Below are positions 9,724 through 63,000 of a DNA stretch of 64,000 nucleotides, one piece after another (position 1 is the stretch's first letter; each line of letters opens with the position of its first letter). Made by a program: the position numbers and the translations under genes. Under the pieces are notes generated by a model. It saw only the letters and a list, made by a program, of their open reading frames with translations, was not told where the DNA came from and did no database searches. The DNA comes from Spongiibacter nanhainus (GTDB taxonomy: Bacteria > Pseudomonadota > Gammaproteobacteria > Pseudomonadales > Spongiibacteraceae): positions 2,073,001 through 2,137,000 of the forward strand of contig NZ_CP066167.1 in NCBI RefSeq assembly GCF_016132545.1, in the 5' to 3' direction.

Positions 9724-9798
9724 AGCCGCCCTCTGAATCAGGGCCCAATGAGTTGCGCACTTACCCACGTGCCAAGACGGCCCCTGAAACCTTCTTCG

Positions 9799-39959: not shown

Positions 39960-39974
39960 CCCGGAGTGACTGTC

Positions 39975-40316
39975 ATGCAAGAGATCAAAGCCTATATCAA
40001 ACACCGCAAACTGGAAGCCGTGACCCTGGCCCTGCACCGCGTGCAGGGCGTCACCGGCATGAGTGTCGCCCACGTTGTCGGCTTCGGCCGTAGCAAAGTC
40101 AATACCAGCGCTGCCAACCCGATTGAGGGCGCGGGGGATTTTGTCAAGCACGTGAAAGTGGAGATCGTCTGTCACGATCAGTACGTGGACGAGGTCGTCC
40201 GGGTACTGAAAAGCGAGGCGCATACCGGACTGCGCGGCGATGGTCGCATTTTTATCAGCGATGTCAATCGTGCAATCCGGATCGAAGATGGTGCCGAGGA
40301 CAGTACGGTTGTCTGA
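39975..40316 (+). CDS. P-II-like signalling protein linked to czcCBA
   Basis: A 113-residue protein with the P-II/GlnB-like ferredoxin fold: MQEIKAYIKHRKLEAVTLALHRVQGVTGMSV at the N-terminus and HTGLRGDGRIFISDVNRAIRI at the C-terminus (the GDGxIFV signature of P-II). The T-loop area (HVVGFGRSKVNTSAANPIEGAG) is unlike GlnB and lacks the uridylylated tyrosine. Such P-II homologues sit beside many CzcA/CusA pumps and probably sense a metal or nucleotide. The ATG at 39975 with GGAG 9 bases upstream is preferred over GTG at 39966. It is the last gene of the czc operon. Confidence 0.82.
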   Translation: MQEIKAYIKHRKLEAVTLALHRVQGVTGMSVAHVVGFGRSKVNTSAANPIEGAGDFVKHVKVEIVCHDQYVDEVVRVLKSEAHTGLRGDGRIFISDVNRAIRIEDGAEDSTVV

Positions 40317-45611: not shown

Positions 45612-45722
45612 TTAAGCTGGCTTTAGCGGCTGTTCGATAAGCCCGAGGCGTTCGTAATAACGAATAGTTTCGACACTGACCCGAGCTGCTTGTGCCAGTT
45701 TACCGATGGTCAATTGACTCAT
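45612..45722 (-). pseudogene. Truncated MerR-family regulator, first 36 residues
   Basis: An open frame [31 protein letters not shown]... followed by PLKPA and a stop. It is the DNA-binding N-terminus of a MerR regulator with the rest missing. The start overlaps the end of the sensor kinase gene by 23 bases. It could make a 36-residue peptide but has no dimer helix or metal site, so I call it a remnant, probably of the same lost metal unit as the cusA fragment beside it. Confidence 0.8.
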
Positions 45723-47157
45723 CACTTTCTCCCGTAGCACTCACCTCTACATCAGCCATGCTGGGTAAGCTGATCGTGAAACGCGTAACGTCGCGCTCGG
45801 AGATCACCTTGATATTCCCCTCATGAGCTTCGACTATGGACTTGACGATAGCCAGTCCCAAACCTGTACCTTCGCTTTGGCGTTGTCGGGAGGGATCGAT
45901 CCGGTAAAACCGGTCGAAAATTCTGGGCAAATGCTCGGCTGGAATTTTCGGCCCCGGATTCTGTACGCTGAGTAATGCTCCACCCTCGCCCGATAATGCC
46001 AGCCCGACCAGCACACGCCCCCCTTCGGATGTATGACGTAGGGCATTGGACAGCAGATTGGACAATGCACGACGCAGCATGGCGCGGTCACCCTGTATAA
46101 TCGGAGTCTTGCCTTCCGATACCAATTCGATTTGCTTTTCCTCCGCCAGCGCCTCAAAAAAATCGAACAGCTCGCGCACTTCACGAGCCAGATCCAGCGG
46201 TTCCCAGACGGGCTTGAGCAGACCGTGTTCGCTTTGGGCTAGCCAGAGCATGTCATTGACCATCTTGGTCAAGCGCTCCTGTTCTTCCAGGTTTGAATAT
46301 AACAGTTCGCGATATTCTTCCAGGCTTCTGGATTTAGCCAAACCCACCTGGGTCTGGGTAATCAGGTTGGTCAGCGGCGTGCGCAATTCATGGGCGATAT
46401 CAGCGGAGAAATGAGAAAGTCGAGCAAAGCTGTCCTCCAATCGACTGATCATATGGTTAAACGAATCAACCAGCGTTTTCAGCTCCCCCGGCACGGTGTC
46501 GGGATCGAGACGCACATGCAGCCGATCCGCCTGGACATTACCCATAGACTCACTGAGAGCACGTATTGGGGCATGCCCCTGATGCACGCCATACCCGGCC
46601 GCCAGAAGAGTTATCGCCCCTGCCGCCACCATGATCACCCACAAACTGCGACGAAAATTTTCCAGAAAGTGGATATGGAAATCCATATCGATGGCAGCAA
46701 TGATGCGATAGTCCTGACCACCGATGCGAGTATCGGTGGCAGTGCCACGGTAGGTTTTGCCATCAGATTGCCAGGTGTAAAGATTGTCTACCTGGATGCG
46801 GTCCACAGGGGGATAGGTGTTCGCTTGTGGCAAAGATCCGGTGTCCACGGAACTATAGACCAAGCGTCCCGCATCGTCCCAAACTTGAAAATAGACGCCG
46901 TGATGACCAGAAACAGCTCGCGCAAGGGCGTCCTCCGGAGCCAATGCCTGATCCTTCGCCATTTGCAGAGCCTTCTCAACAGCACGAGTGATCACCACCA
47001 ATTCGTCGGCATCCTGTTCAGCAAAATGGCGCTCTACCTCGTTTTGCACCAAATGGCCGATCATCAGCAAGCTCAAACCGATAGCGACCGCGACAAACAG
47101 CATCACACGGCTGTTGAGTGACAGTGGTCGCCTCCGGGCGAGGCTAACTTTCCTCAT
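45700..47157 (-). CDS. cusS: Heavy-metal sensor histidine kinase (CusS/CopS-like)
   Basis: A 485-residue membrane kinase. A first membrane segment ([20 protein letters not shown]), a periplasmic sensor of about 130 residues and a second segment ([19 protein letters not shown]) are followed by HAMP, the phospho-acceptor [15 protein letters not shown] and ATP-binding boxes ([19 protein letters not shown]). It should phosphorylate the response regulator gene just upstream, with which it overlaps by 14 bases (start ATG 47157). It senses periplasmic Cu/Ag or Zn/Cd; the divergent copAB operon favours copper. Confidence 0.9.
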
Positions 47158-47836
47158 GGTCGTCCTCAACCTCCAGCTTGTAACCCATGCCACGCACGGT
47201 GTGAATCAGCTTGGGCTCAAAATCGTCATCGATTTTTGCCCTTAGGCGCCGTATGGCCACGTCAATGACATTGGTGTCGGAATCGAAGTTCATGTCCCAC
47301 ACCTGGGAGGCGATAAGGGAGCGCGGCAATACTTCGCCCTGTCGCCGGACCAACAGCTCCAGCAAGCAAAACTCCTTGTGGCTGAGATTGATCTTACGCC
47401 CAGCGCGCGTGGCCCGGTGACGCGGTAAATCCAGGGTGAGGTCGGCAACTTTGATCTGATCGGTCATCACCGGCACCGTACTGCGACGCAACAGAGTGCG
47501 CACCCGAGCCAGCAGCTCGGCAAAGGCGAAGGGCTTGACCAGGTAATCGTCAGCACCCAGCTCCAAGCCCTTTACGCGGTCATCCACGCTGTCGCGGGCG
47601 GTTAGGAACAGCACTGGCGTCTGACGGCCAGCCTCGCGCAGTGACTGCACGATTCGCCAGCCGTCGACGTCCGGCAGCATGACGTCCAGCACCAGTAAAT
47701 CAAAGGTTTCTGTCATCGCCAAATGATGGCCGTCGAGGCCATTGCGCGCCAACGTGACCAGAAAGCCAGCCTCGGTCAGCCCCTGCTGTACATAATCGCC
47801 GGTCTTGATTTCGTCTTCGACCACCAATAGCCGCAT
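47144..47836 (-). CDS. cusR: OmpR-family response regulator (CusR/CopR-like)
   Basis: A 230-residue regulator: receiver domain ([20 protein letters not shown], phospho-acceptor Asp in [14 protein letters not shown], switch lysine in [10 protein letters not shown]) and an OmpR winged helix ([37 protein letters not shown]). It matches the CusR/CopR/CzcR group. It is divergent from copA, and a Cus-type box lies between. First gene of the two-component operon. Confidence 0.93.
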
Positions 47837-48033: not shown

Positions 48034-49908
48034 ATGACCCATGGTTTCCCCCGACCCAAGCAGCCCTGGCAGCTTAGTCGCCGCCGCTTCGTGCAGGGCC
48101 TTGCAGCCGGTGGCGTGCTGGCCGCCACACCGTCCTGGTTGCAGGCCGCCGCAAAAGGCGCGACCGCGCTGGGCTCGGCACCGGTACTCAGCGGCCGTGA
48201 AATCGACCTGGTAATCGCCGCAACACCTGTCAATTTTACCGGTGTCACACGTATGGCGACCACCATCAACGGTTCCATTCCGGCACCGACGCTACGGCTG
48301 CGCGAGGGCGATGACGTCACCATCCGCGTCACCAACCGATTACCTGTTTCTACCTCTATTCACTGGCACGGCATCTTGCTGCCCTATCAAATGGATGGTG
48401 TGCCGGGGATCAGCTACCCAGGCATCGCACCGGGAGAAACCTTTGTTTACCGCTTTACCCTCCGCCAGAGCGGCACCTATTGGTACCACAGTCACTCCGG
48501 CTTTCAGGAGATGACCGGGATGTATGGCGCCCTGATTATTGAGCCGCGGGCAGGCGAAAGACACCGTGCCGACCAGGATTATGTGGTGCAGCTGTCCGAC
48601 TGGACCGACGAAGATCCAATGCATACCTTCAGCAAGCTGAAAGTACAAAGCGATGTCTACAACTTCAATCAGCCCACCTTTTTCGATTTCACAGCCGATG
48701 TTTCAAAGATGGGCTTACAGGCAGCCCTGGAAAAGCGCCAGATGTGGAACCAGATGCGGATGAACCCGACCGATCTGGCGGACCTGTCGGCGGCCACCCT
48801 CACCTTCCTAATGAATGGCACCACCCCGGCGGGCAATTGGAGCGGGTTGTTCCAGCGCGGTGATCGCGTACGGCTTCGTTTTATTAATGCCGCCAGCAAC
48901 AGCTTTTACGATATCCGCATTCCGGGTTTGAAGCTAACGGTGATCCAAGCGGATGGTCAGGATGTTGAACCTGTCACTGTGGATGAATTCCGTTTCGGCC
49001 CCGGAGAAACCTACGATGTCATGGTCGAACCGCGGGACGATGCTTACACCATCTTTGCCCAGAGCATGGAACGCAGCGGCTATGCCCGCGGCACCCTGAC
49101 CGTGCGGCAAGGCTTAACCGCTCCAGTACCAGATCCTGACCCGGTTGAGTGGTTGACCATGGCTGACATGATGGGGGCTATGAGTCATGGCACTGGTCAC
49201 GAAGGCATGAATCATAGCGGTATGGATCAGGGGTCCATGAGTATGGGTGCCATGGATCACAGCACCATGGATCATTCCCAGATGCACGGCGGCATGGCCA
49301 TGGATCACAGTATGCACGGCGTGCAGCGGGCTTCTGATAACCCTCTTGCCAAACCCTCATCCACCATACGCCACGCCCGAACCGAATACGGCGCTTCGGT
49401 GGATATGCGAGTGGACATGCCACGCACCAATCTCGACGATCCGGGTATTGGCTTGCGCAACTTAAGCCAGCGTGGGTTGCGCCCACAGGGCCACCGAGTG
49501 CTGACGCTGGCCGACCTAAAATCCATCGATGGTGTGCTGGATGACCGCCGCCCGCCCGCGAGGGAGCTGGAACTACATCTTACCGGCAATATGGAACGCT
49601 ATAGCTGGTCTTTCGACGGACTCGAATTCGGTAAAAGCACACCGGTCTCCCTGCGCCACAATGAACGCGTTAGAATTATTCTGCAAAACGACACCATGAT
49701 GACCCACCCAATGCATTTACACGGCATGTGGAGCGAACTGGAAACCGATCAGGGTGAATTGCGGGCCCGCCGCCATACCATTCCCGTGCAACCAGCGCAG
49801 CGTATCAGTTACCTGACCACACCCCATGACTTGGGCCGCTGGGCCTGGCATTGCCATCTGCTGTTTCATATGGACGCGGGCATGTTCCGCGAAGTGGTAG
49901 TGTCATGA
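48034..49908 (+). CDS. copA: Multicopper oxidase CopA (copper resistance)
   Basis: A 624-residue periplasmic multicopper oxidase of the CopA/PcoA type that oxidises Cu(I). The Tat signal SRRRFVQGLAAGGVLA is near residue 10. Copper ligands appear in SIHWHGILLP, YWYHSHSGFQE, HPMHLHGMW and the C-terminal AWHCHLLFHMDAGMF (type 1 and trinuclear sites). A Met/His/Asp-rich insert (about residues 375-430, repeated MDHS and GMNHSGM units) is the copper-binding segment. It is translationally coupled to copB (ATGA). This CopA is not the P-type ATPase of the same name at 56609. Confidence 0.95.
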   Translation: MTHGFPRPKQPWQLSRRRFVQGLAAGGVLAATPSWLQAAAKGATALGSAPVLSGREIDLVIAATPVNFTGVTRMATTINGSIPAPTLRLREGDDVTIRVTNRLPVSTSIHWHGILLPYQMDGVPGISYPGIAPGETFVYRFTLRQSGTYWYHSHSGFQEMTGMYGALIIEPRAGERHRADQDYVVQLSDWTDEDPMHTFSKLKVQSDVYNFNQPTFFDFTADVSKMGLQAALEKRQMWNQMRMNPTDLADLSAATLTFLMNGTTPAGNWSGLFQRGDRVRLRFINAASNSFYDIRIPGLKLTVIQADGQDVEPVTVDEFRFGPGETYDVMVEPRDDAYTIFAQSMERSGYARGTLTVRQGLTAPVPDPDPVEWLTMADMMGAMSHGTGHEGMNHSGMDQGSMSMGAMDHSTMDHSQMHGGMAMDHSMHGVQRASDNPLAKPSSTIRHARTEYGASVDMRVDMPRTNLDDPGIGLRNLSQRGLRPQGHRVLTLADLKSIDGVLDDRRPPARELELHLTGNMERYSWSFDGLEFGKSTPVSLRHNERVRIILQNDTMMTHPMHLHGMWSELETDQGELRARRHTIPVQPAQRISYLTTPHDLGRWAWHCHLLFHMDAGMFREVVVS

Positions 49909-50750
49909 GGCTTAATACGGTGAAATATCTCACAACACTGGTTGTTATTGTCGGTGCCCTTCAAGTAAATACGGCCCTGGCGCAAATGGATCACGACGAG
50001 ATGCAAATGCAGGGCGGCAGCGCTCCGGCCGATGCCCGCGATCCCCACGCTTATTCCGACGGTTACACCTTGACCGAAGGCCCCTATGCACAGCCGGGGC
50101 CGCGGCAACTGAAACTGGCGGACGAACACGCCTTCTGGTCCGTTCTGGGCGATCGCCTGGAGTATCACGAAGACAGCGAGAGCACGGTTTACGATATACA
50201 GGCCTGGTATGGCACCACCTACAACCGCTTTGTCATCAAAGCGGAAGGTGATATCGCAGACGGCACACTAGAAGAAAGTTCAACCGAGCTGTTGTGGGGC
50301 CATGCGCTCAACGCCTATTTCGACACCCAATTCGGCGTCCGACTCGACCAATATGACGAAGGCAAGAACCGTCAGTGGCTGGCAATTGGTATGCAAGGCC
50401 TGGCGCCCTACTGGTTTGAGCTGGATGTTACTGCGTATGTTGGCGACGACGGTCGGACCGCACTCTCTGCCGAGGCCGAGTACGAGTTGCTGCTGACACA
50501 GCGGCTCATTTTACAGCCCCGTGCGGAACTGAATCTGTATGGCAAGGATGACCCTGATAATAGTTTGGGGGCGGGCCTCTCGGATCTCGCGCTGGGCTTG
50601 CGCCTGCGTTACGAATTCAGCCGTCAATTTTCTCCCTACATCGGTGTGGAATGGACAGACACCTATGGCGACACAGCTGATTACCGCCGTGCGGCAGGCG
50701 AAGATACGTCAGGCACCCAATTCGTCGCAGGACTGCGATTCTGGTTTTAA
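49905..50750 (+). CDS. copB: Copper resistance outer-membrane protein CopB
   Basis: A 281-residue CopB/PcoB protein: signal peptide (MRLNTVKYLTTLVVIVGALQVNTALAQ), a short Met-rich stretch (MDHDEMQMQGG), then an outer-membrane barrel (VYDIQAWYGTTYNRFVIKAEGD, LLWGHALNAYFDTQFGVRLD) ending in FVAGLRFWF. It sequesters or exports copper at the outer membrane together with CopA. The start ATG overlaps the copA stop. Confidence 0.93.
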   Translation: MRLNTVKYLTTLVVIVGALQVNTALAQMDHDEMQMQGGSAPADARDPHAYSDGYTLTEGPYAQPGPRQLKLADEHAFWSVLGDRLEYHEDSESTVYDIQAWYGTTYNRFVIKAEGDIADGTLEESSTELLWGHALNAYFDTQFGVRLDQYDEGKNRQWLAIGMQGLAPYWFELDVTAYVGDDGRTALSAEAEYELLLTQRLILQPRAELNLYGKDDPDNSLGAGLSDLALGLRLRYEFSRQFSPYIGVEWTDTYGDTADYRRAAGEDTSGTQFVAGLRFWF

Positions 50751-50807
50751 CAATAACCAAGTTGATACGGAAACTTTTCAAACACCTATGAGGAACACCT
50801 TATTACT

Positions 50808-51095
50808 ATGAAAACACTAGCCACTGTCATCGTGCTCTCCACACTGGGCATCGCTTTATCTGCACAGGCCCATGATCCTAAAGAGCATATGAAAGACGCT
50901 GAAAAGCCGGATTGTGCAGCCATGACAAATATGGATCACAGCAAGATGGATATGAATGATCCCGTGATGCAAGCCATGATGAAACAATGCATGAATGACA
51001 TGCATCATAACGACTCTAAAAAGGATCAAGCGCAGGCTGATCATCAGGACAACGAAAAAAGCTCAGGCGAGCAACATTCAGAACACCAACACTGA
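50808..51095 (+). CDS. Small periplasmic Met/His-rich copper-binding protein
   Basis: A 95-residue protein with a signal peptide (MKTLATVIVLSTLGIALSAQA) and a mature part rich in Met, His and Asp: NMDHSKMDMNDPVMQAMMKQCMNDMHH and a histidine-ending tail EQHSEHQH. No fold is evident; it is probably a copper sponge. The MDHSxM unit recurs in CopA and in the tail of CusB. GAGGAAC precedes the ATG by about 14 bases. It lies in the copAB operon. Confidence 0.75.
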   Translation: MKTLATVIVLSTLGIALSAQAHDPKEHMKDAEKPDCAAMTNMDHSKMDMNDPVMQAMMKQCMNDMHHNDSKKDQAQADHQDNEKSSGEQHSEHQH

Positions 51096-51113
51096 TCAAC
51101 CCAAGGAGTTTTC

Positions 51114-51695
51114 ATGTCGGCGCTCACCACCTTTATCAAAAGTCTGGTCATTACCGCTGTCATCGCGCTGGTGGGTGGTGGGCTGTTTCTCTATTCAGGT
51201 CTCTACCCCATGGGAGCCGATGTACCACACAATCGGCCGACCTACTGGCTACTGGAAACCTTGCGTGAACGTTCAGTTGCACGTGCTGCCAGTGACATAA
51301 AGGTTCCTGGCGACCTAAACGCACCGGAGCGGTTACTGGCGGGTGGCGCCGACTACAATGATATGTGTGCAGGGTGCCATTTGAAGCCGGGTAAAACCGA
51401 AAGTGATTTCACCCTGGGGTTATATCCCACACCACCCAACCTAACTCTAGCGGGTGATGAACATGGACACGATCATACCGGTAACACCGAAAATGACGAC
51501 GAGGCCAGTAAACGACAATTCTGGATTGTTAAACATGGCATCAAGGCCTCGGGCATGCCCGCCTGGGGACCGGGGCATGACGATGAACGTATCTGGAACA
51601 TGGTGGCGTTCCTGAAGCAGTTGCCGGAACTGTCTCCCGACCAATACCAGATACTCACCGCACGTGGGCAAGACTCGGAAGGGCATGGTCACTGA
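51114..51695 (+). CDS. Membrane-anchored c-type cytochrome
   Basis: A 193-residue protein with an N-terminal membrane anchor (LVITAVIALVGGGLFLYSGLY) and one heme site DYNDMCAGCHLKPG (CxxCH). Axial methionine may be in GIKASGMPAWGP. It ends with HDDERIWNMVAFLKQLPEL, the usual cytochrome c closing helix. Its place after copAB suggests that it passes electrons in copper oxidation or that it renews periplasmic thiols; this is inference. AAGGAG stands 6 bases before the ATG. Confidence 0.86.
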   Translation: MSALTTFIKSLVITAVIALVGGGLFLYSGLYPMGADVPHNRPTYWLLETLRERSVARAASDIKVPGDLNAPERLLAGGADYNDMCAGCHLKPGKTESDFTLGLYPTPPNLTLAGDEHGHDHTGNTENDDEASKRQFWIVKHGIKASGMPAWGPGHDDERIWNMVAFLKQLPELSPDQYQILTARGQDSEGHGH

Positions 51696-52688: not shown

Positions 52689-54041
52689 TTAATGATGATG
52701 TTCATGCGCCTGACTTTGGGACACAGCTTGCTTTCGTTTTTCAGATCCAAGGAATAGTTGCTCTCCGATCGCGATTAGCATCATTGTGACAACGGCCACA
52801 CCCAACACAAATGGATCTGAATTCAACTTCACCCAAACGAACCCGCTTAGTGCAAGCGAATCTAATATAATCGCGGTAACGGGGACCCAGCTTTTGGCTT
52901 TAACATCGTCCAACAAGTAGCGCAGAACACCCCAGTGAATGGCGATATCCATCACCAGATAGAATATGATGCCAAGTGCTGCTATACGGGAAAGATCAAA
53001 GAACGCGGTGAGCACAAGTCCAAGAACCACGGTGTACACCAATGTATGTTTCTGAATGCTACCCGGCATACCGAAATGGCTATGGGGCACCAACTTCATT
53101 TCCGTTAGCATCGCCAGCATTCTGGAGACCGCAAAAATACTGGCAAGAATCCCTCCCGCCGTCGCCAGCATGGCAATCGCAACGGTGAACCACACGCCGT
53201 ACTCACCGAGTGCAGGTCGAGCGGCCGCAGCCAGGGAATAATCTCGAGTTTGAATAATCTCCCTGAGTGAGAGGTTACTGGCCACCGCAAAACCAACCAA
53301 TGTATAGATAACGACACAGGCAGCAATCGAAATAACAATGGCGCGACCAACATTGCGGTGTGGATCGATCACCTCGGAACCACTATTGGTAATAGTGGTA
53401 AAGCCTTTGAATGCCAGAATCCCCAGCGCTGTGGCGCCGAGGAAATTACTGGCTGAACCGGTCTCGCTTACATGGTCAAAGTCCACTGCCAGGCTATCAG
53501 CTAACCAGATGCCGACGAGACCAAAGATTAGAATTCCACCAATTTTCAGTAGGCCGATAAACCCTGCAACCCCTTGAATCAACCGATTACCCAACAGGTT
53601 CACAATGAACGCCGCCAGAATTAGGGAGACGCCGAGTATAGGAGTCATTTGCCCTGAAGGGTCACCGCCAAATAATTGCATGGTGTAAGAACCGAACGTA
53701 CGCGCTAGAAAACTCTGCGCGATGACCATCGAAAAATACATAAGTAGTGCATTAAACGCAGTGGGCAACCGGTCGCCATAGGCCTTATGCAGATACATGC
53801 CGATCCCCCCTGCTGATGGGTAGGCATTGGATATTTTGATGTATGAGTAAGCACTGAAACCAACGATGATCGCGGCCGCGAGGAATGCCAATGGGAATAA
53901 TGCACCAGTCATCTCTGCCATTTGCCCGGTTAGCGCAAATATTCCTGCGCCGATCATCACCCCAGTCCCGAGCATCACCGTACCTGACAGAGAGAGGCTA
54001 CCCTCGTCATAATGTGTCGAACGATCGTCTTTTTCCTCCAT
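52689..54041 (-). CDS. APC-family permease in the copper operon
   Basis: A 450-residue amino acid/polyamine-type transporter with twelve membrane segments. The first carries GTVMLGTGVMIGAGIFALTGQ, with the unwound glycine motif of APC proteins. KGFTTITNSGSEVIDPHRNVGRA is the conserved loop between segments. The tail ends AHEHHH. Its ATG comes immediately after the stop of a 62-residue gene (TGAATG), which itself follows an HMA-like gene. Placement in a copper operon suggests transport of a metal-chelating amino acid or counter-ligand, but no such role is established. Confidence 0.85.
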   Translation of the reverse strand: MEEKDDRSTHYDEGSLSLSGTVMLGTGVMIGAGIFALTGQMAEMTGALFPLAFLAAAIIVGFSAYSYIKISNAYPSAGGIGMYLHKAYGDRLPTAFNALLMYFSMVIAQSFLARTFGSYTMQLFGGDPSGQMTPILGVSLILAAFIVNLLGNRLIQGVAGFIGLLKIGGILIFGLVGIWLADSLAVDFDHVSETGSASNFLGATALGILAFKGFTTITNSGSEVIDPHRNVGRAIVISIAACVVIYTLVGFAVASNLSLREIIQTRDYSLAAAARPALGEYGVWFTVAIAMLATAGGILASIFAVSRMLAMLTEMKLVPHSHFGMPGSIQKHTLVYTVVLGLVLTAFFDLSRIAALGIIFYLVMDIAIHWGVLRYLLDDVKAKSWVPVTAIILDSLALSGFVWVKLNSDPFVLGVAVVTMMLIAIGEQLFLGSEKRKQAVSQSQAHEHHH

Positions 54042-54230
54042 TCATGCCCCCTTAATATAATGGTCAGCCCTCTTCCTGGGCATTCGTTGCAAGGTATACA
54101 GGATGCTTAAAACTGCATTTCTCAACAGACTGCTAGTCATATCGACAGGTTCCAACGTCAATTGGCCCCTCACCAGATTAATTTCCGAGACACCTAATCG
54201 ATGTTCTTTGTTGCTCATTTTCTCTTTCAT
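54042..54230 (-). CDS. 62-residue protein coupled to HMA-like and APC genes
   Basis: A small basic protein (MKEKMSNKEHRLGVSEINLVRGQLT ... VLSILYTLQRMPRKRADHYIKGA). Its start codon touches the stop of the gene before (TAGATG) and its stop touches the APC start (TGAATG), which is strong evidence that it is translated. One amphipathic helix is likely near residues 33-50. I know no family. Confidence 0.6.
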   Translation of the reverse strand: MKEKMSNKEHRLGVSEINLVRGQLTLEPVDMTSSLLRNAVLSILYTLQRMPRKRADHYIKGA

Positions 54231-54578
54231 CTAATGAGGCGGCATCTTGTTGCAGCAGTGCGCCTCATGTTTAGCGTTATCCCCGATATTCTCATCGGTC
54301 TGCCGTTGCCAACTCAGCCTGGTTCGGGACCACCAGCTGTCTTTTATTGCCGCACCATGCTTTTCGACAATGGCGATCATTTCATCGATATTGTGATGAG
54401 AAGCGTCGTAGGCGATTTTTAAGGTTTTTCTACGTGCATCGAACTGAACGCTGTCAACACAGGGAAGTTCATCAATTTCCTCAACAATCGCTTTGGTATT
54501 GTTTTCATTGATCCCGCACAGGCTCAAGGTATGCTTGGTTAAAAAACCTGGATTGATACCCGATCGATGCTCACTCAT
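54231..54578 (-). CDS. HMA-fold protein lacking the CxxC metal motif
   Basis: A 115-residue protein whose middle (HTLSLCGINENNTKAIVEEIDELPCVDSVQFDARRKTLKIAYDASHHNIDEMIAIVEKHG) has the beta-alpha-beta-beta-alpha-beta pattern of heavy-metal-associated domains. The MxCxxC loop is replaced by LCGINENN, so normal copper binding is lost. The tail carries a late Cys pair (HEAHCCNKMPPH). GGAGG lies 9 bases before the ATG at 54578. It begins the stop-start-coupled cassette with the 62-aa protein and APC permease. It may be a regulatory or partner subunit of the permease. Confidence 0.72.
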   Translation of the reverse strand: MSEHRSGINPGFLTKHTLSLCGINENNTKAIVEEIDELPCVDSVQFDARRKTLKIAYDASHHNIDEMIAIVEKHGAAIKDSWWSRTRLSWQRQTDENIGDNAKHEAHCCNKMPPH

Positions 54579-54619: not shown

Positions 54620-55063
54620 CTATTTTTTGTGTTTGTGGACAGGTGTTTTTTGGGATTCAGACTCATGATCCATCATTTTCCCCATCATCATCTGCATCAT
54701 GCCCATTCGTTCTTCCATCATGTCCATGCGCTTTATCATATCCATGTCGTCCATTTTTGATGACTCACCTACTGTCATTTCCATTCCCATGCCATCACCC
54801 ATTAATCGCATACCCTTCTGCATGACTCGCATATGTTCCTGCATCAGTTGCTGGCGTTTTTCCGGATCGGTTTCGGCTTTGATTTTTCCCATCATGTCGT
54901 GCATCTTTTGCATGTGCTCATGCATAGCCATCATTTGCTCATGGCCCATCATCATTCCGCCCATCGGCTGATCTTTACTGTCGCCATGTTCGTGCCCTTT
55001 TTCCGCAAAGACGGGCGAAGAAATCGCGGCGGCTATTACCAAAGTGGAGATTAGTTTTTTCAT
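54620..55063 (-). CDS. Periplasmic Met/His-rich helical protein
   Basis: A 147-residue protein with a signal peptide (MKKLISTLVIAAAISSPVFA), an acid/His stretch (EKGHEHGDSKDQ) and a long helical region very rich in methionine (GGMMMGHEQMMAMHEHMQKM, later MGMMQMMMGKMMDHE), ending in HKHKK. It resembles copper- or silver-storing periplasmic proteins of the CopK/SilE sort in composition only. The start at 55063 follows GGAG within 8 bases and is preferred over 55156. Confidence 0.75.
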   Translation of the reverse strand: MKKLISTLVIAAAISSPVFAEKGHEHGDSKDQPMGGMMMGHEQMMAMHEHMQKMHDMMGKIKAETDPEKRQQLMQEHMRVMQKGMRLMGDGMGMEMTVGESSKMDDMDMIKRMDMMEERMGMMQMMMGKMMDHESESQKTPVHKHKK

Positions 55064-55076
55064 CGGAGTACCCTCA

Positions 55077-55727
55077 TCAGTTGGAAACAGTTTTATCGAC
55101 GTTAAATTTCGGAATCCATGCCGGCGTGACTTCCATATAGCGGCGATAGTCATCACCGAATTCCTTCAATGCCATGCGCTCCTCACGCTTAGCGAGTCGC
55201 ACGTAAACCACTACCAGAACCGGAAACATAATCACGGTAAGGATCGTCGGCCACTGCAACAGAAATCCAAACATGATCAGGATAAATGCGATGTACTGCG
55301 GGTGGCGGCAACGGGCATACCAGCCGGTAGTCGCTAGCGAACGGGTCTGCTGCGCCTTGTGCAGAACACTCCACGCCGAGGCCAGTAAAAAGAAACCCAA
55401 AATGATCAGGACATTACTGGCGATATGCAGCGGATCAAAATGAGGGTTGCCTTCAAAACCGAAAAGGGTATGCAGAAGATGGCCGTTTTCGTGGGACAGA
55501 AAATCAATACCAGGATATTTTTCCGCCAACCAGCCGGAGAGAAAATAAATGGTTAATGGAAAGCCATACATCTCGGTAAATAGGGCAATAATAAACGCCG
55601 AGAAAGCGCCAAAGCTTCGCCAGTCAGTTTTGGTTTGCGGCTTGGTAAAGCTGAAGGCAAAGAAAATAAATATCGCCGAATTAAGTATCACCAGCGTCCA
55701 GAGGCCGTAAGCAGATTCACCGTGCAT
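55077..55727 (-). CDS. ICMT-like integral membrane methyltransferase
   Basis: A 216-residue membrane protein with about five segments and the C-terminal signature of the isoprenylcysteine carboxyl methyltransferase family: GWYARCRHPQYIAFILIMFGFLLQW, then KREERMALKEFGDDYRRYMEVTPAWIP. These bind S-adenosylmethionine at the C-terminus; bacterial substrates are unknown. Genes of this kind are often beside DUF2933 genes in metal islands, as here. CAGGAG lies 7 bases before the ATG at 55727. Confidence 0.83.
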   Translation of the reverse strand: MHGESAYGLWTLVILNSAIFIFFAFSFTKPQTKTDWRSFGAFSAFIIALFTEMYGFPLTIYFLSGWLAEKYPGIDFLSHENGHLLHTLFGFEGNPHFDPLHIASNVLIILGFFLLASAWSVLHKAQQTRSLATTGWYARCRHPQYIAFILIMFGFLLQWPTILTVIMFPVLVVVYVRLAKREERMALKEFGDDYRRYMEVTPAWIPKFNVDKTVSN

Positions 55728-55752: not shown

Positions 55753-56037
55753 TTAATGGTGATGACGGTTTTCGTTTTCCCGACGGCCTTCCTCCAGCCC
55801 CCGCTGATAGGCATCCTGCTCGGACTCGCCTTCATGCTGATCATGGCTACCATGACCACCGTGTCCGCCGTGCATAAACAGATGCATAAAGGGGCAGGCA
55901 AGGAAAATCAGGAACGGCAGAAATTGCCAGACGTGTTGCCGGTGCTCGACGAGCAGAAAATAGGTGACCGCGCCAATAAGTCCCAGTGCCGCCAGTCCTT
56001 TGGGTGTTAACCAGAATGATGTTTTTTGAGTCGCCAT
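55753..56037 (-). CDS. DUF2933 domain membrane protein
   Basis: A 94-residue protein with two membrane segments (LAALGLIGAVTYFLLVEHRQHVWQ and LPFLIFLACPFMHLFMH), a His/Gly-rich loop (HGGHGGHGSHDQHEG) and a tail ending NRHHH. The pattern EHRxH...P(x)LxxLxCPxMHLFMH identifies DUF2933. A role in copper binding at the membrane is likely from composition and context. It lies between a P-II-like gene and the methyltransferase. Confidence 0.83.
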   Translation of the reverse strand: MATQKTSFWLTPKGLAALGLIGAVTYFLLVEHRQHVWQFLPFLIFLACPFMHLFMHGGHGGHGSHDQHEGESEQDAYQRGLEEGRRENENRHHH

Positions 56038-56045
56038 GTCACACC

Positions 56046-56216
56046 TCACCTGTGTAATTGAAAATCGTTGTCTGTTGCGCCGCGTTTATCGTGTATCCAC
56101 AGACGCCCACGAACTAGATGCAAGGTAAAATCCTTCACCCCATGTCGAATCAAAGTTTCTTCCACGTTTTTCAGGCGAAACTCGTCAAAAATGGCCGTGA
56201 CTTTGTTGATGTTCAT
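56046..56216 (-). CDS. Half-length P-II-like protein
   Basis: A 56-residue protein whose sequence (NINKVTAIFDEFRLKNVEETLIRHGVKDFTLHLVRGRLWIHDKRG) matches the first beta-alpha-beta half of P-II proteins, ending where the T-loop would start. The second half with the GDGxIFV signature is missing and a new 10-residue tail follows. The frame is intact and it lies 8 bases from the next gene, so it may be a functional mini-protein, not just a broken copy. The ATG at 56216 starts inside an acceptable spacing of AGGAGG. Confidence 0.7.
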   Translation of the reverse strand: MNINKVTAIFDEFRLKNVEETLIRHGVKDFTLHLVRGRLWIHDKRGATDNDFQLHR

Positions 56217-56227: not shown

Positions 56228-56581
56228 TTATTGCACCGTGATTTGTCCACGGTACATCTGCATCTGACAATGAAACGCATACTCGCCGGATGACATTGCT
56301 GGCAGCTGAATGGTCTTCAGTTTATTCAACGGTAAGGTGTCGCTGATTTGCAGTTCGGGGATCAATAAAGTTTCAGAACAGGGCGATTGATCTCTGCGCA
56401 TAAATTTGATTTCTACCGGTTCTCCAGACGGCACTTTAATGCGCGAAGGCGAATAGGTACCGTTTTCCACAGTAATCACCAGATCGTTTTCACCCAGCTC
56501 GGCTTCTTTCGGCTTGTAGAGCCAGAACCACCACACAATCAGTGCAATTAGCGCTAAACCCGCAATATTAATAATCATCAT
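56228..56581 (-). CDS. Membrane-anchored cupredoxin-domain protein
   Basis: A 117-residue protein with an N-terminal membrane anchor (IINIAGLALIALIVWWFWLY) and a cupredoxin fold: LVITVENGTYSPSRIKVPSGEPVEIKFMRRDQSPCSETLLIPE, then YAFHCQMQMYRGQITVQ. The C...H/C-x-M arrangement near the end is that of a type 1-like copper site with a Met-rich entrance. It probably hands copper to, or accepts it from, the neighbouring P-type ATPase. 27 bases separate it from copA. Confidence 0.84.
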   Translation of the reverse strand: MMIINIAGLALIALIVWWFWLYKPKEAELGENDLVITVENGTYSPSRIKVPSGEPVEIKFMRRDQSPCSETLLIPELQISDTLPLNKLKTIQLPAMSSGEYAFHCQMQMYRGQITVQ

Positions 56582-56608: not shown

Positions 56609-58939
56609 TTAGTGCTCCTGCGCTTTAAAGAAGCGCAGCCTATTAGCATTGGTTACAACTGTCAGCGATGAAAACGCCATCGCCGCACCGGCAATCACCG
56701 GACTTAACAGCAAACCGAAAAATGGATACAACACCCCGGCTGCAAAAGGCACGCCGGCGACATTGTAAATAAAGGCGCCAAATAGATTTTGTTTGATATT
56801 TCGCAACGTAGCCTTGCTGACGGCAATGGCATCCGCCAGGCCATGTAACGAACCCCGCATCAGTGTTATGTCGGCACTCTCAATGGCCACATCCGTACCG
56901 GTGCCGATAGCAAAACCGACATTGGCGATAGCCAGGGCCGGCGCATCGTTAATACCGTCACCCGTCATGCCCACCACTTCGCCTTCCATTTGCAGCTTCT
57001 GCACTTTTTTGGATTTTTCTTCCGGCAGTACTTCAGCAAAGAATTCCTTGATACCGGCTTTTTCCGCTACCGCTTTGGCTGTGGCGCGGTTGTCGCCGGT
57101 GAGCATCACCACCCGAATACCGTTATGTTGCAAACGCTTGATGGCCGCTATGGAGTCTTTCTTAATCGGATCGGCCACAGCGATAATCGCTGCAAGTTGA
57201 TTATCAATAGCGAAATACATCGGTGTTTTAGCCTCGGCGGCCAACGCCTGGGCCTTTTCGACAAAATCACCGAGCTCAATGGTGCGCTCGCGCATGAGCT
57301 TTTCATTGCCGAATAACAGTGTTTTTCCGTCCACCTCCGCCTGCACACCGTGGCCGGCAATGGCGTTAAAATTGGACACCTTGCCCATTTCGATCCCTCT
57401 TTCCTGAGCACTTTCAACAATAGCCATGGCCAACGGATGCTCAGAGCCGGATTCAAGCGTTGCTGCCAATCGCAACACCGCCTGCTCATCATACTCACCC
57501 GCCACCAGTACATCGGTGACCTTCGGTGCACCCAGGGTAATGGTGCCGGTTTTATCCAGAATCATCGCCGTTATCTTCGACGCGGTTTGCAGGGCTTCTC
57601 CGTTGCGAATCAGCACGCCCGCCTCTGCGGCCTTACCCACACCCACCATCACCGACATCGGCGTGGCCAGCCCCAGCGCACAGGGACAGGCGATAATCAA
57701 TACAGTCGTGGCCGATACTATGGCAAATGCCACCGCCGGTTCCGGTCCAAAATTAAGCCAGGTCAAGGCACTCACCACAGCAATAATCATCACCACCGGT
57801 ACAAAATATGCCGAGATGACATCAGCCAAACGACCAATCGGCGGCTTGGAGTTTTGTGCGCGCTTGACCATATTGATGATTTGCGCCAGCGCCGTGTCTT
57901 TACCAACGCGGGTAGCTTTAAACAAAATTGAGCCGGATTTATTGATGGTGCCCGCCGCTACGGTATTCCCAGTGGCTTTTTCAACCGGCATCGGCTCGCC
58001 GGTGAGCATGGATTCGTCAATCGCCGTATGCCCTTCAACCACTTCACCATCGACGGGAATTTTTTCACCTGGGCGCACGCGGACCACATCGTTCAGTAGA
58101 ACCTGTTCGATAGCGATATCCAGTTCTTTGTCATCGCGAATAACCCGCGCCGTTTTCGCCTGCAATCCAATCAGGCGCTTAATAGCCTCAGAGGTACGAC
58201 CGCGGGCTTTCAATTCCAGGGCAAGACCGAGATCGATTAAACCAATAATCATCGCGGTCGCCTCGAAATAAACATGGCGCGCCATTTCCGGCACCAAGTG
58301 AGGAACAAACACCACCACCATCGAATACACCCACGCCGTACCTGTGCCTAAAGCAATCAAGGTATCCATATTGGCCGAGTGATTTTTAAAGGATTGCCAG
58401 GCACCGACATAAAAGTGTTTGCCAGAGAACACCATCACCGCAAGTGTCAGTAATCCAACAGCCAACCAGGCAATGCGCCCACCAGTGCTTGTTACCGTCA
58501 TTTCGCCGACTACGATGCTGTAAATCATCAGCGGCACGCCCAGACTGAGGGCGATGGTCATTTCCCGCATCAGTCGTTTGTAGTAAGCCCAATCAGCTTT
58601 TTCTTTTTCCTCCAATGCATCGTCTTCATTGTCAGCAAGGCTGATTTTGGCGTTATAACCGGCGCCCTCAACGGCTTTTATCAATTGCTCGGCAGGCGCC
58701 GAACCGAACACGCTAACGGTTCGCTGAGCGAAATTCATTTCCGCGTTTTCCACACCCGGTATCGCTTTTAGGGCGGATTCGATTTTTCCCACACAGCTGG
58801 CACAACCAGCGCCTTCGATCATCAGTTCCTGGCTTACTGCGCTGCCGCCATGAACATGATGGTGGTGATGCTGGCCAGTTTCCGTACGTTCATGACAGGA
58901 TGGATTGCCAGATTCCGTGTTTGTTGAACTCATATCCAT
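56609..58939 (-). CDS. copA: Copper-exporting P1B-type ATPase
   Basis: A 776-residue copper pump. The N-terminus has a histidine run ([11 protein letters not shown], 22-32) and one HMA domain with GAGCASC (C46, C49). The eight-segment membrane region holds the CPC ion site at C418-P-C420 ([12 protein letters not shown]), and phosphorylation occurs at D462 in DKTGTIT. The nucleotide loop HP pair is in GSEHPLAMA and the hinge is [10 protein letters not shown]. It exports Cu(I) or Ag(I) from the cytoplasm. The poly-His head suggests periplasm-independent metal sensing. It is third in the operon that a CueR-like regulator controls. Confidence 0.95.
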
Positions 58940-58962: not shown

Positions 58963-59283
58963 CTAGCGAATGAGCGTTGCGGGAAAACCCACACGATCCA
59001 ACGCATCGGTAAGGTTTTTTGGTTCAACCACACCAATGACTGAAGCGACGCCCGTTGCCAGGTCCATCGACACTTCGCTAACCCCTGCAACGGATTTCAA
59101 CGTCTGCTCGATACTTTTCACGCAACCACCGCAGGTGGCACCCTGAACCTGTAAACGATGAAGAGGAAGAGACGTATCGCTAACGCTGCGGATATCTCGG
59201 GCTTCAGCAGAAACGGATGATTTGCCGGCGCAGCAACAACCACCTCGGTGTTGACCCGCACTTGGCGTTTTGTGTGTATTCAT
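58963..59283 (-). CDS. HMA-domain copper chaperone with Cys-rich N-terminus
   Basis: A 106-residue cytoplasmic protein. An N-terminal GGCCCAGKSS cluster is followed by an HMA domain (LHRLQVQGATCGGCVKSIEQTLKSVAGV...) with the metal motif ATCGGC. It is the likely chaperone for the adjacent ATPase. Its start overlaps the stop of the MerR-type gene (ATGA). The two extra cysteine sites could bind several copper ions. Confidence 0.88.
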   Translation of the reverse strand: MNTHKTPSAGQHRGGCCCAGKSSVSAEARDIRSVSDTSLPLHRLQVQGATCGGCVKSIEQTLKSVAGVSEVSMDLATGVASVIGVVEPKNLTDALDRVGFPATLIR

Positions 59284-59696
59284 AACCTATCCTCCGCAGT
59301 GAATTCTTCGATCAGATGACAAAGCATATGGCCCGTTGGCGCCTTATCCGGCTTTTGACTCCACTCCAACACAGCCTGTTGCATGCGATCCCGCAATTTC
59401 AACGTTTCCCTAAGCTGTCGCTCGGTTTCATGCAGGCGCTGATCAATCAAGCGGCGCACCGTTGGGCAAGGAGACTTTTTCTTGTCCGCATGGGCGAGAA
59501 TCTCCTGAATATCCTCTACCGAAAATCCCAACTGTCGGGCACTCAGCACGAACCGTAAGCGATTAACATCTTTATCACTGTATTCCCGGTAACCATTGGC
59601 CTTGCTTTTTGTGGGATTCAAAATCTTGATCCGGGTATAAAACCGCACCGTATCGGCCGTAACCCCTAAACGCCTGGCCATTTCGATAACTTTCAC
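59280..59696 (-). CDS. MerR-family copper regulator (CueR-like)
   Basis: A 138-residue MerR regulator: winged helix MKVIEMARRLGVTADTVRFYTRIKIL, then ANGYREYSDKDVNRLRFVLSARQLGFSVEDIQEIL and a dimer helix with KKSPCPTVRRLIDQRL. Two CueR-like metal cysteines are likely CPTV and the C-terminal GHMLCHLIEE. I place the start at the GTG at 59696, because GAGGAGG lies 5-7 bases upstream and family length is then normal. The longer frame to 59867 crosses the operator and is not supported. It autoregulates the long copper operon. Confidence 0.87.
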   Translation of the reverse strand: MKVIEMARRLGVTADTVRFYTRIKILNPTKSKANGYREYSDKDVNRLRFVLSARQLGFSVEDIQEILAHADKKKSPCPTVRRLIDQRLHETERQLRETLKLRDRMQQAVLEWSQKPDKAPTGHMLCHLIEEFTAEDRL

Positions 59697-59832
59697 ACAG
59701 CCCTCCTCGCAGCTCAGTCTGACTATCACAGGATTCAGATTAACCCCGAGGATCTGTTCCTTGCCTTGATATGAGTCAATCATCAGTTCTAAACCCGAGA
59801 GTAAATCCGAAGTATTTATCCGGCTTTTTGTC

Positions 59833-59863
59833 ACCTTACACCTGTGTCCAAGACACAGGTCAA
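59833..59863 (-). promoter_or_regulatory. CueR-type operator-promoter of the copper operon
   Basis: On the minus strand TTGACC (59863-59858) and TAAGGT (59838-59833) are 19 bases apart. The spacer is filled by a perfect dyad: ACCTGTGTC at 59840-59848 and its complement at 59852-59860, separated by 3 bases. This is the classic MerR/CueR architecture. It precedes the merR-like gene start by about 140 bases and should drive the whole series down to about 52.6 kb. Confidence 0.9.
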
Positions 59864-60093: not shown

Positions 60094-63000
60094 CTATTCA
60101 TCTACCTTGCCCTGCTTCCAAAGCAAATAAACCGCCGGCAATACCAACAATGTCAATACCAAAGCACTGAGCATGCCCCCCACCATAGGTGCAGCAATTC
60201 TGCTGACCACTTCCGCCCCTGTACCGGTACTGAACATGATCGGCAGTAAGCCGACAATAGTAGAGACTGTCGTCATCATCACCGGTCTAACACGTAAGCC
60301 TGCACCGTGAAGAACAGCTTCCCGTAATCCTTTCATACTCGGTGTGATGCCCCGCTCCTCACACTGAAGCAAGAAAAGCGTATGTGCCTGGTTGAGATAG
60401 ACCAGCATAATGACGCCAATTTCTACCGCCACGCCCGCCAACGCGATAAAACCCACACCCACAGCAACGGAAAAGTTGTAACCAAGCAAATACATCAACC
60501 AGATGGACCCAATCATTGCCAGTGGTAAGGTGCCCATAATGATGGCGACCTCGGCAACACTGCGGAAATTTAAATAGAGCAGCACGATGATAATTGCCAG
60601 AGTCAGAGGCACCACGTAGGAGAGCTTCTCTTTGGCCCGCAACATGTATTCATACTGTCCCGACCAATTCAGGGAGTAGCTTGTTGGTAGTTCGACCTGA
60701 TCGGCCACCACTTTCATAGCGTCTTCCACATAACTGCCGACATCCACTCCGTCGATATCGACAAAGGTCCAACCATTAAGACGGGCGTTTTCACTCTTGA
60801 TGGCAGGCGGCCCGTCTTCAACATAAACACGAGCAACATCCCCCAATGCAATGCGCTGACCACTGGTCGTGACAATAGGCAGCAGAGCTAACTGCTCGGG
60901 AGAGTTGCGATAATCTTGTGGGTAACGCAGGTTGACGGGGTAACGTTCCAGCCCTTCGATAGTCTGCGCTACGTTCATACCGCCTATAGCGGTGGCAACC
61001 ACTTGCTGCACATCGGCGATATTGAGGCCATAGCGTGCGGCTTTTTCTCGCTGAATATCCACCTTGATATAACGGCCACCCGCTACTCGCTCGGAATATA
61101 CTGAGGCTGTGCCAGGTACATCTTTGAGCACCTGCTCCAAACGCTTGCCGATTTTTTCGATCTCCTTGAGGTCGGGGCCAGCCACCTTAATACCCACCGG
61201 GGTTTTTATACCGGTAGCCAGCATGTCGATGCGGGTTTTGATGGGCATCACCCAGGCATTGGTCAAGCCGGGAAACTTCACCAGCGCATCAAGCTCCTTC
61301 TTGAGTTTGTCGGTGGTCATGCCATCGCGCCACGCCTCTCTGGGTTTCAACTGAATAAAGGTTTCAATCATGGTTAGCGGCGCCGGATCTGTAGCAGTTT
61401 CAGCCCGTCCAATTTTGCCAAATACGGTTTCTACTTCCGGAACTGTGGCAATCAGCTTGTCAGTCTGTTGCAGGATTTCCCGCGCCTTGCCGATGGACAG
61501 GCCCGGATAGGTAGTGGGCATGTACATCAGGTCGCCTTCATCCAGATCGGGTATGAATTCGCTGCCAATCTTGTTAAGCGGCCAGATCCCAACAAGAAAC
61601 ACAACGCCAGCCATGGCGAGTGTGATTTTTGGAAAGCGCAAAACACCCTTGAGCAGCGGCATATAGCCTGCAATCAGCAACCTGTTGATGGGGTTTTTTC
61701 TCTCGGCGACCACCTTGCCCCTGATAAAATACCCCATCAACACCGGCACCACTGTCACTGCCAACGCGGCGCTGGCGGCCATGGCATAGGTTTTAGTGAA
61801 GGCTAGGGGACTAAACATTCGGCCTTCCTGAGCCTCCAGGGTAAATACCGGCACAAAGCTGACGGTGATAATCAGCAGACTGAAAAACAATGCCGGGCCG
61901 ACTTCGCTGGCAGACTCTGCCACCACTTTCCAACGGTTCTCTGGCGTCAACGGCGTACGTTCCATATGCTTATGCATATTTTCAATCATCACAATCGCAC
62001 CATCTATCATGGCACCGATGGCAATCGCGATTCCTCCAAGGGACATAATGTTTGCATTAATGCCTTGCCAGTACATCACAATAAAGGCCGTCAGGATTCC
62101 CAGCGGCAGGCTAACGACTGCCACCAGTGATGACCTGACATGAAATAAGAAAATGACACAGATCAACGCGACGATAGCAAGCTCTTCAACCAGACTTTTC
62201 CATAAACTGTCAATGGCGCTAGAGATCAATCGAGATCGGTCGTAAACCGTGACAATTTCTACGCCTTCCGGCAAACCCACCTTGAGTTTTTCCAACTTTG
62301 CTTTGACGCCATCAATGGTTTTCTGGGCATTCTCGCCAAAGCGCATGACGACAATCCCACCTACCACTTCTCCCTCACCATTAAGTTCAGCAATACCACG
62401 GCGCATTTGCGGACCCAGTTCAATATCGGCCACATCCTTTAATAACAGCGGTGTGCCATTCATATCCAAACCCAGAGGAATGGTTCTCAGATCGTCAATA
62501 CCCTGGATATAGCCACTGGCACGCACCATATATTCCGCTTCACTCATCTCCACAACAGAAGCACCAACTTCCTGATTACCACGTTGGATGGCCATCTGGA
62601 TATGAGAGAGAGGAATATTAAAAGCACGAAGCTTGTCCGGATTTACTTTGACCTGATACTGTTTGACCATACCGCCAAGCGCAGAGACTTCTGACACCCC
62701 CGGCACCGTTTGCAGTTCGTATTTCAAAAACCAATCCTGCAGGCTGCGCAACTGACTGATGTCGTGCTGACCAGTTCTATCTACCAACGCGTAGAGATAA
62801 ACCCATCCCACGCCAGTCGCATCCGGTCCCAATTGTGGTCTGGCACTGGGTGGCAGCGTCGGCGCCACCTGCGACAGGTATTCCAATACCCGCGAGCGGG
62901 CCCAGTAAGCATCGGTATCTTCATCAAAAATGACATAGACATAGGAGTCGCCAAAAAACGAGTAGCCGCGTACGGTGACCGCACCCGGTACTGACAACAT

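Follow-up and report, generated by a model that had tools for sequence, protein, structure and literature searches.

A Distinct Branch of APC Permeases Recurring in Copper Islands, and Its HMA-like Companion Protein in Spongiibacter nanhainus

Copper resistance is usually explained by an ATPase, an RND pump, an oxidase and periplasmic binders. What role might an amino-acid-type permease have in such a setting? The question is raised by a stretch of 64,000 nucleotides from Spongiibacter nanhainus (contig NZ_CP066167.1, positions 2,073,001 to 2,137,000; hereafter the window, in whose coordinates all positions are given), where an almost gapless run of minus-strand genes leads from a MerR regulator (59717) to a permease (52689). 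The intergenic gaps in this run, with starts chosen by eye, are only -4 to 41 bases, and it is therefore likely to be a single copA operon, from which we infer a single transcript. Its tail is formed by an HMA-like protein, a 62-amino-acid (62-aa) open reading frame (ORF) and the permease, which the original prediction, made from the DNA letters alone, had proposed to be an undescribed transporter system with two partner or regulatory subunits. We find that the permease belongs to a separable clade of the APC family, recurring in copper islands of several phyla. The three reading frames are as follows.

52689..54041, minus strand: APC-family permease of 450 amino acids, last gene of the copA operon (Pfam AA_permease_2, E 1.2e-28)
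54042..54230, minus strand: 62-aa ORF, read as a deletion scar (DNA alignment; BLASTP to the intact paralog)
54231..54578, minus strand: HMA-like protein of 115 amino acids without the loop CxxC (AlphaFold, Foldseek, family rows)

The permease scores 100.6 bits against AA_permease_2 (PF13520; cut-off 27 bits), which places it in the APC family. Matches at E<=1e-30 are present in 45 of the 369 genomes of its class, and their identities split into two sets, one of at least 49% (17/369 genomes, with the organism's own and one 95-residue fragment counted) and one of at most 32%, representing other APC permeases; the genome itself carries one clade permease and one distant paralog at 26%. At E<=1e-80, matches were obtained in 23/398 genomes of the phylum, and at E<=1e-40 in 114 of 72,556 plasmid records, 53 of these 114 being predicted to be conjugative. 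A presence in Escherichia coli was dropped from consideration, as no DNA match was found in 20,395 records. Support for the clade in the tree was 0.96 with 44 members, but 0.565 with 65.

The genomic neighborhood of the clade was scored with tblastn at fixed thresholds, up to about 9 kb to each side, using four copper markers (P1B ATPase, multicopper oxidase, CopB and CusA). A marker lies near 29 of 41 clade loci (from 37 genomes) as opposed to 2 of 20 loci of other APC permeases (Fisher p 7e-6); the clade loci are not independent of each other, since some genomes contribute two and close relatives are included. By draw, the figures are 10/17 for the class and 19/24 for the phylum, with all 20 controls coming from the class draw. 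The P1B ATPase alone accounts for 27/41 clade loci versus 1/20 controls, and when only stretches of at least 11 kb are considered the difference persists (22/30 versus 2/17; Fisher p 6e-5). CopB (PF05275) is encoded in 10 of the 17 clade genomes of the class, often on another contig or at a distance, and its presence at the genome level is therefore less telling than the neighborhood. Among the plasmids, 13 regions were read, chosen by rank and taxonomic spread rather than at random, and 12 of these contain genes annotated as copper genes, in differing gene orders and across three phyla (Pseudomonadota, Bacillota and Bacteroidota): two each from Methylophaga and Halomonas, and one each from Roseovarius, Staphylococcus equorum, Cytobacillus, Bernardetia, Alteromonas, Dinoroseobacter, Jeotgalibaca and Thalassospira. 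The Rhodococcus region (L055) is the only one of the 13 without copper genes. The permease is thus a recurrent, non-housekeeping neighbor of copper genes across phyla.

Could it nevertheless be a common amino-acid permease carried along by metal islands, a hitch-hiker whose unusual methionine and histidine residues are accidents of lineage? Its clear membership of the APC family would fit this, as would its patchy distribution (17/369 class genomes, 114/72,556 plasmid records) and the existence of members outside any copper context. Against it stands the plasmid association, which spans three phyla and differing gene orders, while the control permeases show a marker at 2/20 loci. We consider hitch-hiking rather unlikely.

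Two further observations concern the movement of these islands. In records named Zhongshania, HTCC5015 and Haliea (L009, L010, L011) the permease is 97-100% identical to that of the window, while the neighboring genes are more variable (in L010, 90% for CopA and 62% for the HMA protein; in L011, 78% for the HMA-like protein), which suggests an exchange of parts of the island. Copies of lgt, for prolipoprotein diacylglyceryl transferase, recur in the permease-bearing plasmid copper islands L004, L005, L054 and L058.

What distinguishes the clade within the APC family was assessed in an alignment of 65 clade permeases and 21 others (20 APC permeases and E. coli YbaT). At least 90% conservation within the clade is seen at 148 positions, 50 of which are rare outside it; Met or His occupies 10 of these 50 clade-specific positions versus 2 of the 98 shared conserved ones (Fisher p 4e-4). 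Transmembrane helices (TM) 1, 3, 6, 8 and 10, which make up 34% of the length, hold 30 of the 50 (p 1.5e-4, with helix limits taken from a weak model). In the window protein the residues concerned are M101 and M105 in TM3, K212 in TM6, M308, M311 and M315 in TM8, H320, H322 and M325 in the following loop, H332, M364 and D365 in TM10, and a C-terminal HEHHH. Positions invariant in all 65 include M101, M105, K212, T215, T216, G221, M311, M315, Y361, M364, D365 and W370; among the 21 other sequences M101 is found in two, and M105, M311, M315 and M364 in none. H320, H322 and H332 are kept in 59/65 (exceptions L055, L102, L103, L104, L174 and L175), and a His tail, defined as at least two His in the last 18 residues, in 43/65 compared with 0/21. 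The helix signature is uniform over pairwise identities down to 40%, which argues against a mere hitch-hiker. At the same time the backbone of an amino-acid carrier is retained: TM1 carries G31-A32-G33 (as G-A-G-I-F), the GxG-type motif of ApcT, and Lys166 of TM5, present in 65/65, aligns with Lys158 of MjApcT. Foldseek, run on a low-confidence model of the permease, likewise returned MjApcT (E 1e-16), along with LAT1 and AdiC.

A more radical interpretation makes copper the substrate of the permease, either as Cu(I) or in complex with an amino acid, and the permease itself an APC-fold counterpart of CcoA/CalT, which rely on MxxxM and HxxxM motifs. The path would run from the MxxxM of TM3 past the Met/Asp pair of TM10 to the MxxxM of TM8, and would reach the cytosolic side at the HxH..M loop and the His tail. 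Much of the signature would suit such a path, the window protein having exactly two MxxxM motifs (at 101 and 311), both of them signature motifs with invariant methionines, and no HxxxM. The helices reported to face substrate side chains in APC carriers are mainly TM3, 6, 8 and 10 (PMC8399266). When the permease is aligned with human xCT (7p9u), M105 coincides with an arginine, Arg135 by numbering (offset 8, checked by Phe336), which is reported to bind the γ-carboxylate of the substrate side chain from TM3 (PMC8654953), and M364 lies one turn from the position of Arg396 in TM10. Carriers that have been turned to metals have precedents in CalT (PMC6362234) and in NRAMP, whose LeuT fold carries metal with a Met among the ligands (PMC6398981).

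Several features argue against it. The alignment with consensus-mutated xCT (7ccs) puts the same arginine on F103 instead, so that the mapping of TM3 is uncertain; because the two alignments differ here, we rate copper transport slightly lower. The invariant Lys212, in the unwound segment of TM6 and possibly paired with the Asp of TM10, argues against a bare cation, and together with the TM1 backbone motif favors a zwitterion or anion. The TM8 methionines lie 7-14 residues to the cytosolic side of S301, the residue aligned with the xCT contact Gly334, and a copper importer would be odd in a resistance operon. Copper carriage, the main rival of the reading we prefer, is therefore improbable in our view. 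Its fuller form, a copper-transporting branch of the APC family that moves Cu(I) or a complex via the two MxxxM motifs, the TM6 Lys/TM10 Asp and a His/Met exit, aided in gammaproteobacteria by HMA-like proteins with tail cysteines, strikes us as distinctly doubtful. If true, it would mean that an amino-acid carrier fold has been turned into a carrier of Cu(I) or a copper-amino-acid complex in at least three phyla (Pseudomonadota, Bacillota and Bacteroidota).

The scenario we prefer, although we would place it a little short of an even chance, is that of an APC amino-acid carrier that serves under copper stress and responds to copper at its cytosolic face, accompanied by a CopZ-fold binder that uses tail cysteines and by a 62-aa scar. 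An amino-acid-type carrier is favored because the TM1 backbone motif and the Lys of the proton site are kept; the latter role is reported for K158 of MjApcT (PMC6398981). On this view the permease has the APC fold, forms part of a distinct clade that copper islands have recruited, and probably couples amino-acid transport to protons; its most likely task, under rising copper, would be to carry an amino acid or a similar zwitterion through the inner membrane. Fe-S enzymes needed to make branched-chain amino acids and glutamate are reported to be inactivated by copper, and certain amino acids to relieve copper stress in part (PMC10903455). The carrier could hence make up for amino acids that are no longer produced once copper has destroyed their Fe-S-dependent synthesis, or supply one that buffers copper. 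Cytosolic Cu(I) might tune the permease through the clade-specific Met and His residues that lie where TM8 meets the cytosol and in the loop behind it, and through the frequent His tail, and the HMA-like protein would be a cytosolic CopZ-fold copper binder in which a C-terminal His/Cys-Cys tail replaces the loop CxxC. Substrate, direction of transport, copper binding, copper induction and gating are thus all putative elements of this scenario. A related case has been described in E. coli, where ybaST is reported to be copper-induced, not via CueR directly, and required for rescue by glutamine (PMC10903455), and where a ybaST mutant is copper-sensitive (PMC9628877).

A number of observations weigh against this preference. 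Two other APC subgroups also show Met or His at their own specific positions (1/22 and 2/40), and compared with both the 10/50 of the clade gives only p 0.017, a value that lends some credit to hitch-hiking; the Met and His residues could be neutral synapomorphies. L102, L103 and L174 lack the HxH yet have a Cu-ATPase match nearby. The TM5 Lys is also present in 20/21 of the other APC sequences and is for this reason a mark of the family, not of the clade. The structure model of the permease, built from 13 sequences, is poor (mean predicted local distance difference test, pLDDT, 63.8) and was used for helix limits and Foldseek only, with no judgment of residue distances. No marker was scored at 12 of the 41 clade loci, some of them on short contigs (L092, L096, L099, L100, L101, L104, L105, L156, L157, L172, L175 and L176); the threshold was strict, as L100 and L105 show short or weak CopA matches below it. 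The Rhodococcus loci L055 and L104 seem to have no link with copper. Of the 14 terminator-like sites in the window, five are on the minus strand inside the operon region, which makes one transcript uncertain. YbaT lies outside the clade and is therefore an analogy only, and YbaS alone was reported to restore the ybaST mutant (PMC9628877).

We turn to the protein encoded two reading frames upstream of the permease. The HMA-like protein, which ends in NAKHEAHCCNKMPPH, is modeled by AlphaFold with a mean pLDDT of 88 as strand-helix-strand-strand-helix with a long helix (82-103) and a less certain tail (HCCNK). The best Foldseek match of the model is CopZ (2qif; E 8e-5, TMt 0.88), and its profile matches CopZ-type structures at E 2e-4 to 2e-3. 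The model thus has the HMA fold (PF00403/CopZ), although the sequence is below the HMA Pfam cut-off (17.6 vs 24.8 bits) and the loop CxxC of HMA/CopZ chaperones is missing from the window protein. Compared with the CopZ/HMA chaperones (2qif, 2l3m, 6ff2) it shares the fold and a mostly copper neighborhood, and differs in the missing loop CxxC and in the added C-terminal helix and HCCNK tail.

A search for relatives gave 63 clusters at first and 128 with a profile; the family was compared in 138 rows of at least 105 residues, which were gathered by similarity and are partly redundant. The tail Cys109 is present in all 138 and in the window protein, and position 108 is Cys in 110 and Ser in 28. 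The loop CxxC is seen in 27/138, one loop Cys in 3 and none in 108. The absence of the metal loop and the late HCC pair, both pointed out in the original prediction, are real, and the late Cys pair is the most conserved feature of the family. Those CxxC rows that carry an organism name are from Magnetococcales or Magnetococcus (P0096, P0107, P0115, P0120, P0124, L051, L052), and these relatives combine a loop CxxC (such as MVCPEC) with an HCCSKPP tail, as would a two-site copper-chaperone-like protein; the Cys-Cys tail is therefore independent of loop loss. The CxxC group forms one cluster (27/28 tips), placed inside the non-CxxC sequences when the tree is rooted on two distant HMA domains, a topology compatible with either loss or regain of the motif. 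A different arrangement is seen in 9 of the 28 rows with a Ser-Cys tail, of the type we call HMAx2 (P0074, P0077, P0079, P0085, P0091), where a CxxC such as VCLDC opens the second helix. Because the HMA fold is pseudo-symmetric, this place would mirror the usual metal loop, and part of the HMAx2 subfamily may have shifted its metal site from one such place to the other.

The genome holds one copy of the HMA-like gene, and its profile matches 36/369 class genomes at E<=1e-8, many of them weakly. From 84,980 species genomes we took 45 loci encoding HMA-like relatives, 14 of which are truncated by the end of a contig. A P1B ATPase accompanies 34/45, and any of P1B, multicopper oxidase, CopB or CusA in 36/45, a count made without a control set. 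A clade permease is present in 19/45, and in the other 26 there is none within the stretch covered; in 12/45, all gammaproteobacterial, the HMA-like gene or its paralog is directly followed by the permease. In the 41 permease loci, conversely, HMA-like matches are few (L090, L159, L161, L163).

How, then, did the three frames come to abut? On the minus strand the HMA-like ORF stops with TAG (54231-54233) immediately followed by ATG (54228-54230), and the 62-aa ORF stops with TGA (54042-54044) immediately followed by the ATG of the permease (54039-54041), so that both junctions lack a spare base exactly as first noticed. The 62-aa ORF has no Pfam or NCBIfam family at E<=1, and a protein search returned two clusters, P0064 at 98% identity and P0065 at 74%. 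Among the 45 loci, seven (L011-L014, L016, L017, L019) have the HMA-like gene, then a full-length second HMA-like paralog, HMAx2 (tail SCH), a spacer of 111-114 bp and the permease; L021, L022, L026 and L041 have HMAx2 with the permease not adjoining. The distance between the HMA-like stop and the permease start is 492-495 bp in the seven loci but 189 bp in the window, which has lost a net 303-306 bp.

An alignment of the DNA of the window, L008, L010 and six intact relatives (L011, L012, L013, L014, L016, L019) shows the first ~28 codons of the 62-aa ORF to be the N-terminus of HMAx2 and the rest to be spacer DNA that is non-coding in relatives. The TGA of the fused frame precedes the permease ATG in the six intact relatives too, where TGAATG is non-coding, and its first ATG corresponds there to GAGG, the ribosome-binding sequence of HMAx2; the TAG-ATG abutment thus results from a G-to-T change in GAGG. 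The inherited start of HMAx2 is the second ATG (54218), 12 bases downstream of the first. By BLASTP, P0064 is 47% identical to the intact L012 paralog over 53 amino acids. A script had counted nine loci with a "full" match to the 62-aa ORF, which is too high because this query also aligns along intact HMAx2; the scar allele is found only in L008, L009 and L010, and this count of three was used. We read the 62-aa ORF as the relic of a deletion that removed most of HMAx2, given the HMAx2-spacer fusion, the two clusters and the scar in 3/45 loci. P0065, which keeps the same fused frame at 74% identity, leaves some doubt about this reading, since it may point to a retained function, and the ORF may still be translated.

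Translational coupling as a designed feature is rejected in view of the DNA alignment with relatives, and the 62-aa ORF as a conserved subunit in view of its two clusters, its 3/45 loci and that same alignment. The original prediction had asked how often the trio co-occurs next to copA ATPases; the direct succession of HMA-like gene (or paralog) and permease is limited to 12/45 loci and the 62-aa ORF to 3/45, and the spacerless cassette is not a conserved design. A three-subunit transporter made of all three products would explain the adjacency of the genes, and the succession of HMA-like gene or paralog and permease in the 12 loci speaks in its favor. With one of its subunits a deletion scar, 26/45 HMA-like loci without a clade permease in the stretch covered and few permease loci with an HMA-like match, we regard it as highly improbable.

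The remaining copper genes of the window, in reading order from the permease side, comprise the rest of the operon and two neighboring blocks.

54620..55066, minus strand: Met/His-rich protein of 148 amino acids, exported-looking by eye (many relatives matched by tblastn; no Pfam family reaches its cut-off)
55077..55727, minus strand: isoprenylcysteine carboxylmethyltransferase-type membrane protein, start by eye (Pfam PEMT and ICMT over cut-off, in the longer ORF)
55753..56037, minus strand: DUF2933 protein, start by eye (Pfam E 5e-25, in the longer ORF)
56046..56216, minus strand: 56-aa protein weakly like P-II, after the cupredoxin gene, start by eye (Pfam E 0.008, below cut-off)
56228..56581, minus strand: cupredoxin-domain protein (Pfam E 5e-29)
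56609..58939, minus strand: CopA-type Cu P1B ATPase (TIGR01511, 619 bits, over cut-off)
58963..59283, minus strand: canonical HMA protein with a CGGC loop (Pfam HMA E 7e-13)
59280..59717, minus strand: MerR-family regulator, first gene of the operon, start by eye (Pfam MerR-DNA-bind E 5e-19)
59833..59863, minus strand: promoter-like site of MerR type preceding the MerR gene (TTGACC, 19 bp, TAAGGT), read by eye
48034..51695, plus strand: copper periplasmic genes, namely multicopper oxidase (48034-49908), CopB, a 95-aa protein and cytochrome c
45700..47836, minus strand: heavy-metal type sensor kinase and response regulator (matches in relatives; plasmid homologs so annotated)

The promoter-like site contains a perfect inverted repeat, ACCTGTGTC-TTG-GACACAGGT, and would serve as a MerR-type promoter; the promoter scan covered spacers of 16-18 only, hence the 19-bp site is outside its list. 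The block 48034..51695 also adjoins the permease operon in L009-L011. Within it, CopB is named from a PF05275 match at the corresponding place of the genome, and the multicopper oxidase and cytochrome c via similarity to annotated plasmid genes. A tyrosine integrase (25135-26331; Phage_integrase E 7e-21) lies ahead of a long stretch of metal genes reaching to ~63981, which includes a flavin disulfide reductase, an HMA protein, two pumps of the ACR_tran family (36858-39959 and 60094-63216, assigned to the metal type by eye), a cation efflux protein and the copper genes; this stretch is perhaps one mobile metal island. A P-II family protein (39966-40316; E 2e-18) follows the first of these pumps, a large MmeI-type restriction-modification protein (20219-23671) lies ahead of the integrase, and the sole tRNA found in the window is at 9798-9885.

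These results bear on two levels. A clade of permeases beside copper genes in several phyla and on plasmids could represent a metabolic arm of copper resistance, through amino-acid supply, or a new class of copper carriers, and the HMA-like family offers a copper-chaperone fold from which the textbook metal loop is usually missing while the tail Cys is invariant. Among the open-licence articles listed as matches, judged by title and the start of the abstract, none deals with this permease clade, with its signature of Met and His residues or with the HMA-like family that bears the HCC tail.

Comparison with known systems sets this in perspective. MjApcT (MJ0609; 3gi9/3gi8/3gia) is the best match in both sequence and fold (E 1e-27), sharing the TM1 GxG-type motif and the TM5 Lys. 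It differs at 24% identity, and at the aligned places lacks the Met/His residues and the TM6 Lys of the permease. We know of no copper context for MjApcT. NRAMP transporters bind metal through D56 and N59 of TM1 in DraNramp (PMC6398981); TM1 of the permease, GTGVMIGAGIF, has neither Asp nor Asn by eye. The reported conserved MxxxM and His/Met motifs of CcoA/CalT (PMC6362234), also secondary carriers, have at most a partial parallel in the two invariant MxxxM and the HxH..M loop of the clade, since the window protein has no HxxxM; CcoA/CalT belong to the major facilitator superfamily, as opposed to the APC fold of the permease, and copper transport was measured for them, with only the motif in common here.

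As to gene order, Alteromonas merR-copA-cupredoxin-DUF2933-ICMT clusters have the same five-gene core as the window operon (PMC8478169); the words "APC" and "permease" are absent from the main text of that article. An amino-acid permease among copper genes, which the original prediction took to be without precedent, has already been drawn for Psychrobacter, where the legend of Fig. 5 lists one with LMCO, copB, ICMT and a Cu ATPase in multicopper oxidase/copB regions (PMC4754876); this is the sole use of "permease" in that article, and the likeness is one of legend wording. It also has a studied analogue in E. coli, where ybaST is located between copA and cueR. YbaT resembles the permease in being an APC permease beside a Cu ATPase, with a glutaminase, YbaS, as its partner. 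No glutaminase is among the genes recognised in the copA operon, and YbaT has none of the M/K/H signature residues. In the tree it does not group with the clade but with other APC permeases, in a subgroup of 11 tips (support 0.707) that midpoint rooting places nearest to the clade, and orthology is rejected on this ground. We suggest that the clade may be an independently recruited carrier that serves the same purpose as YbaST in E. coli.

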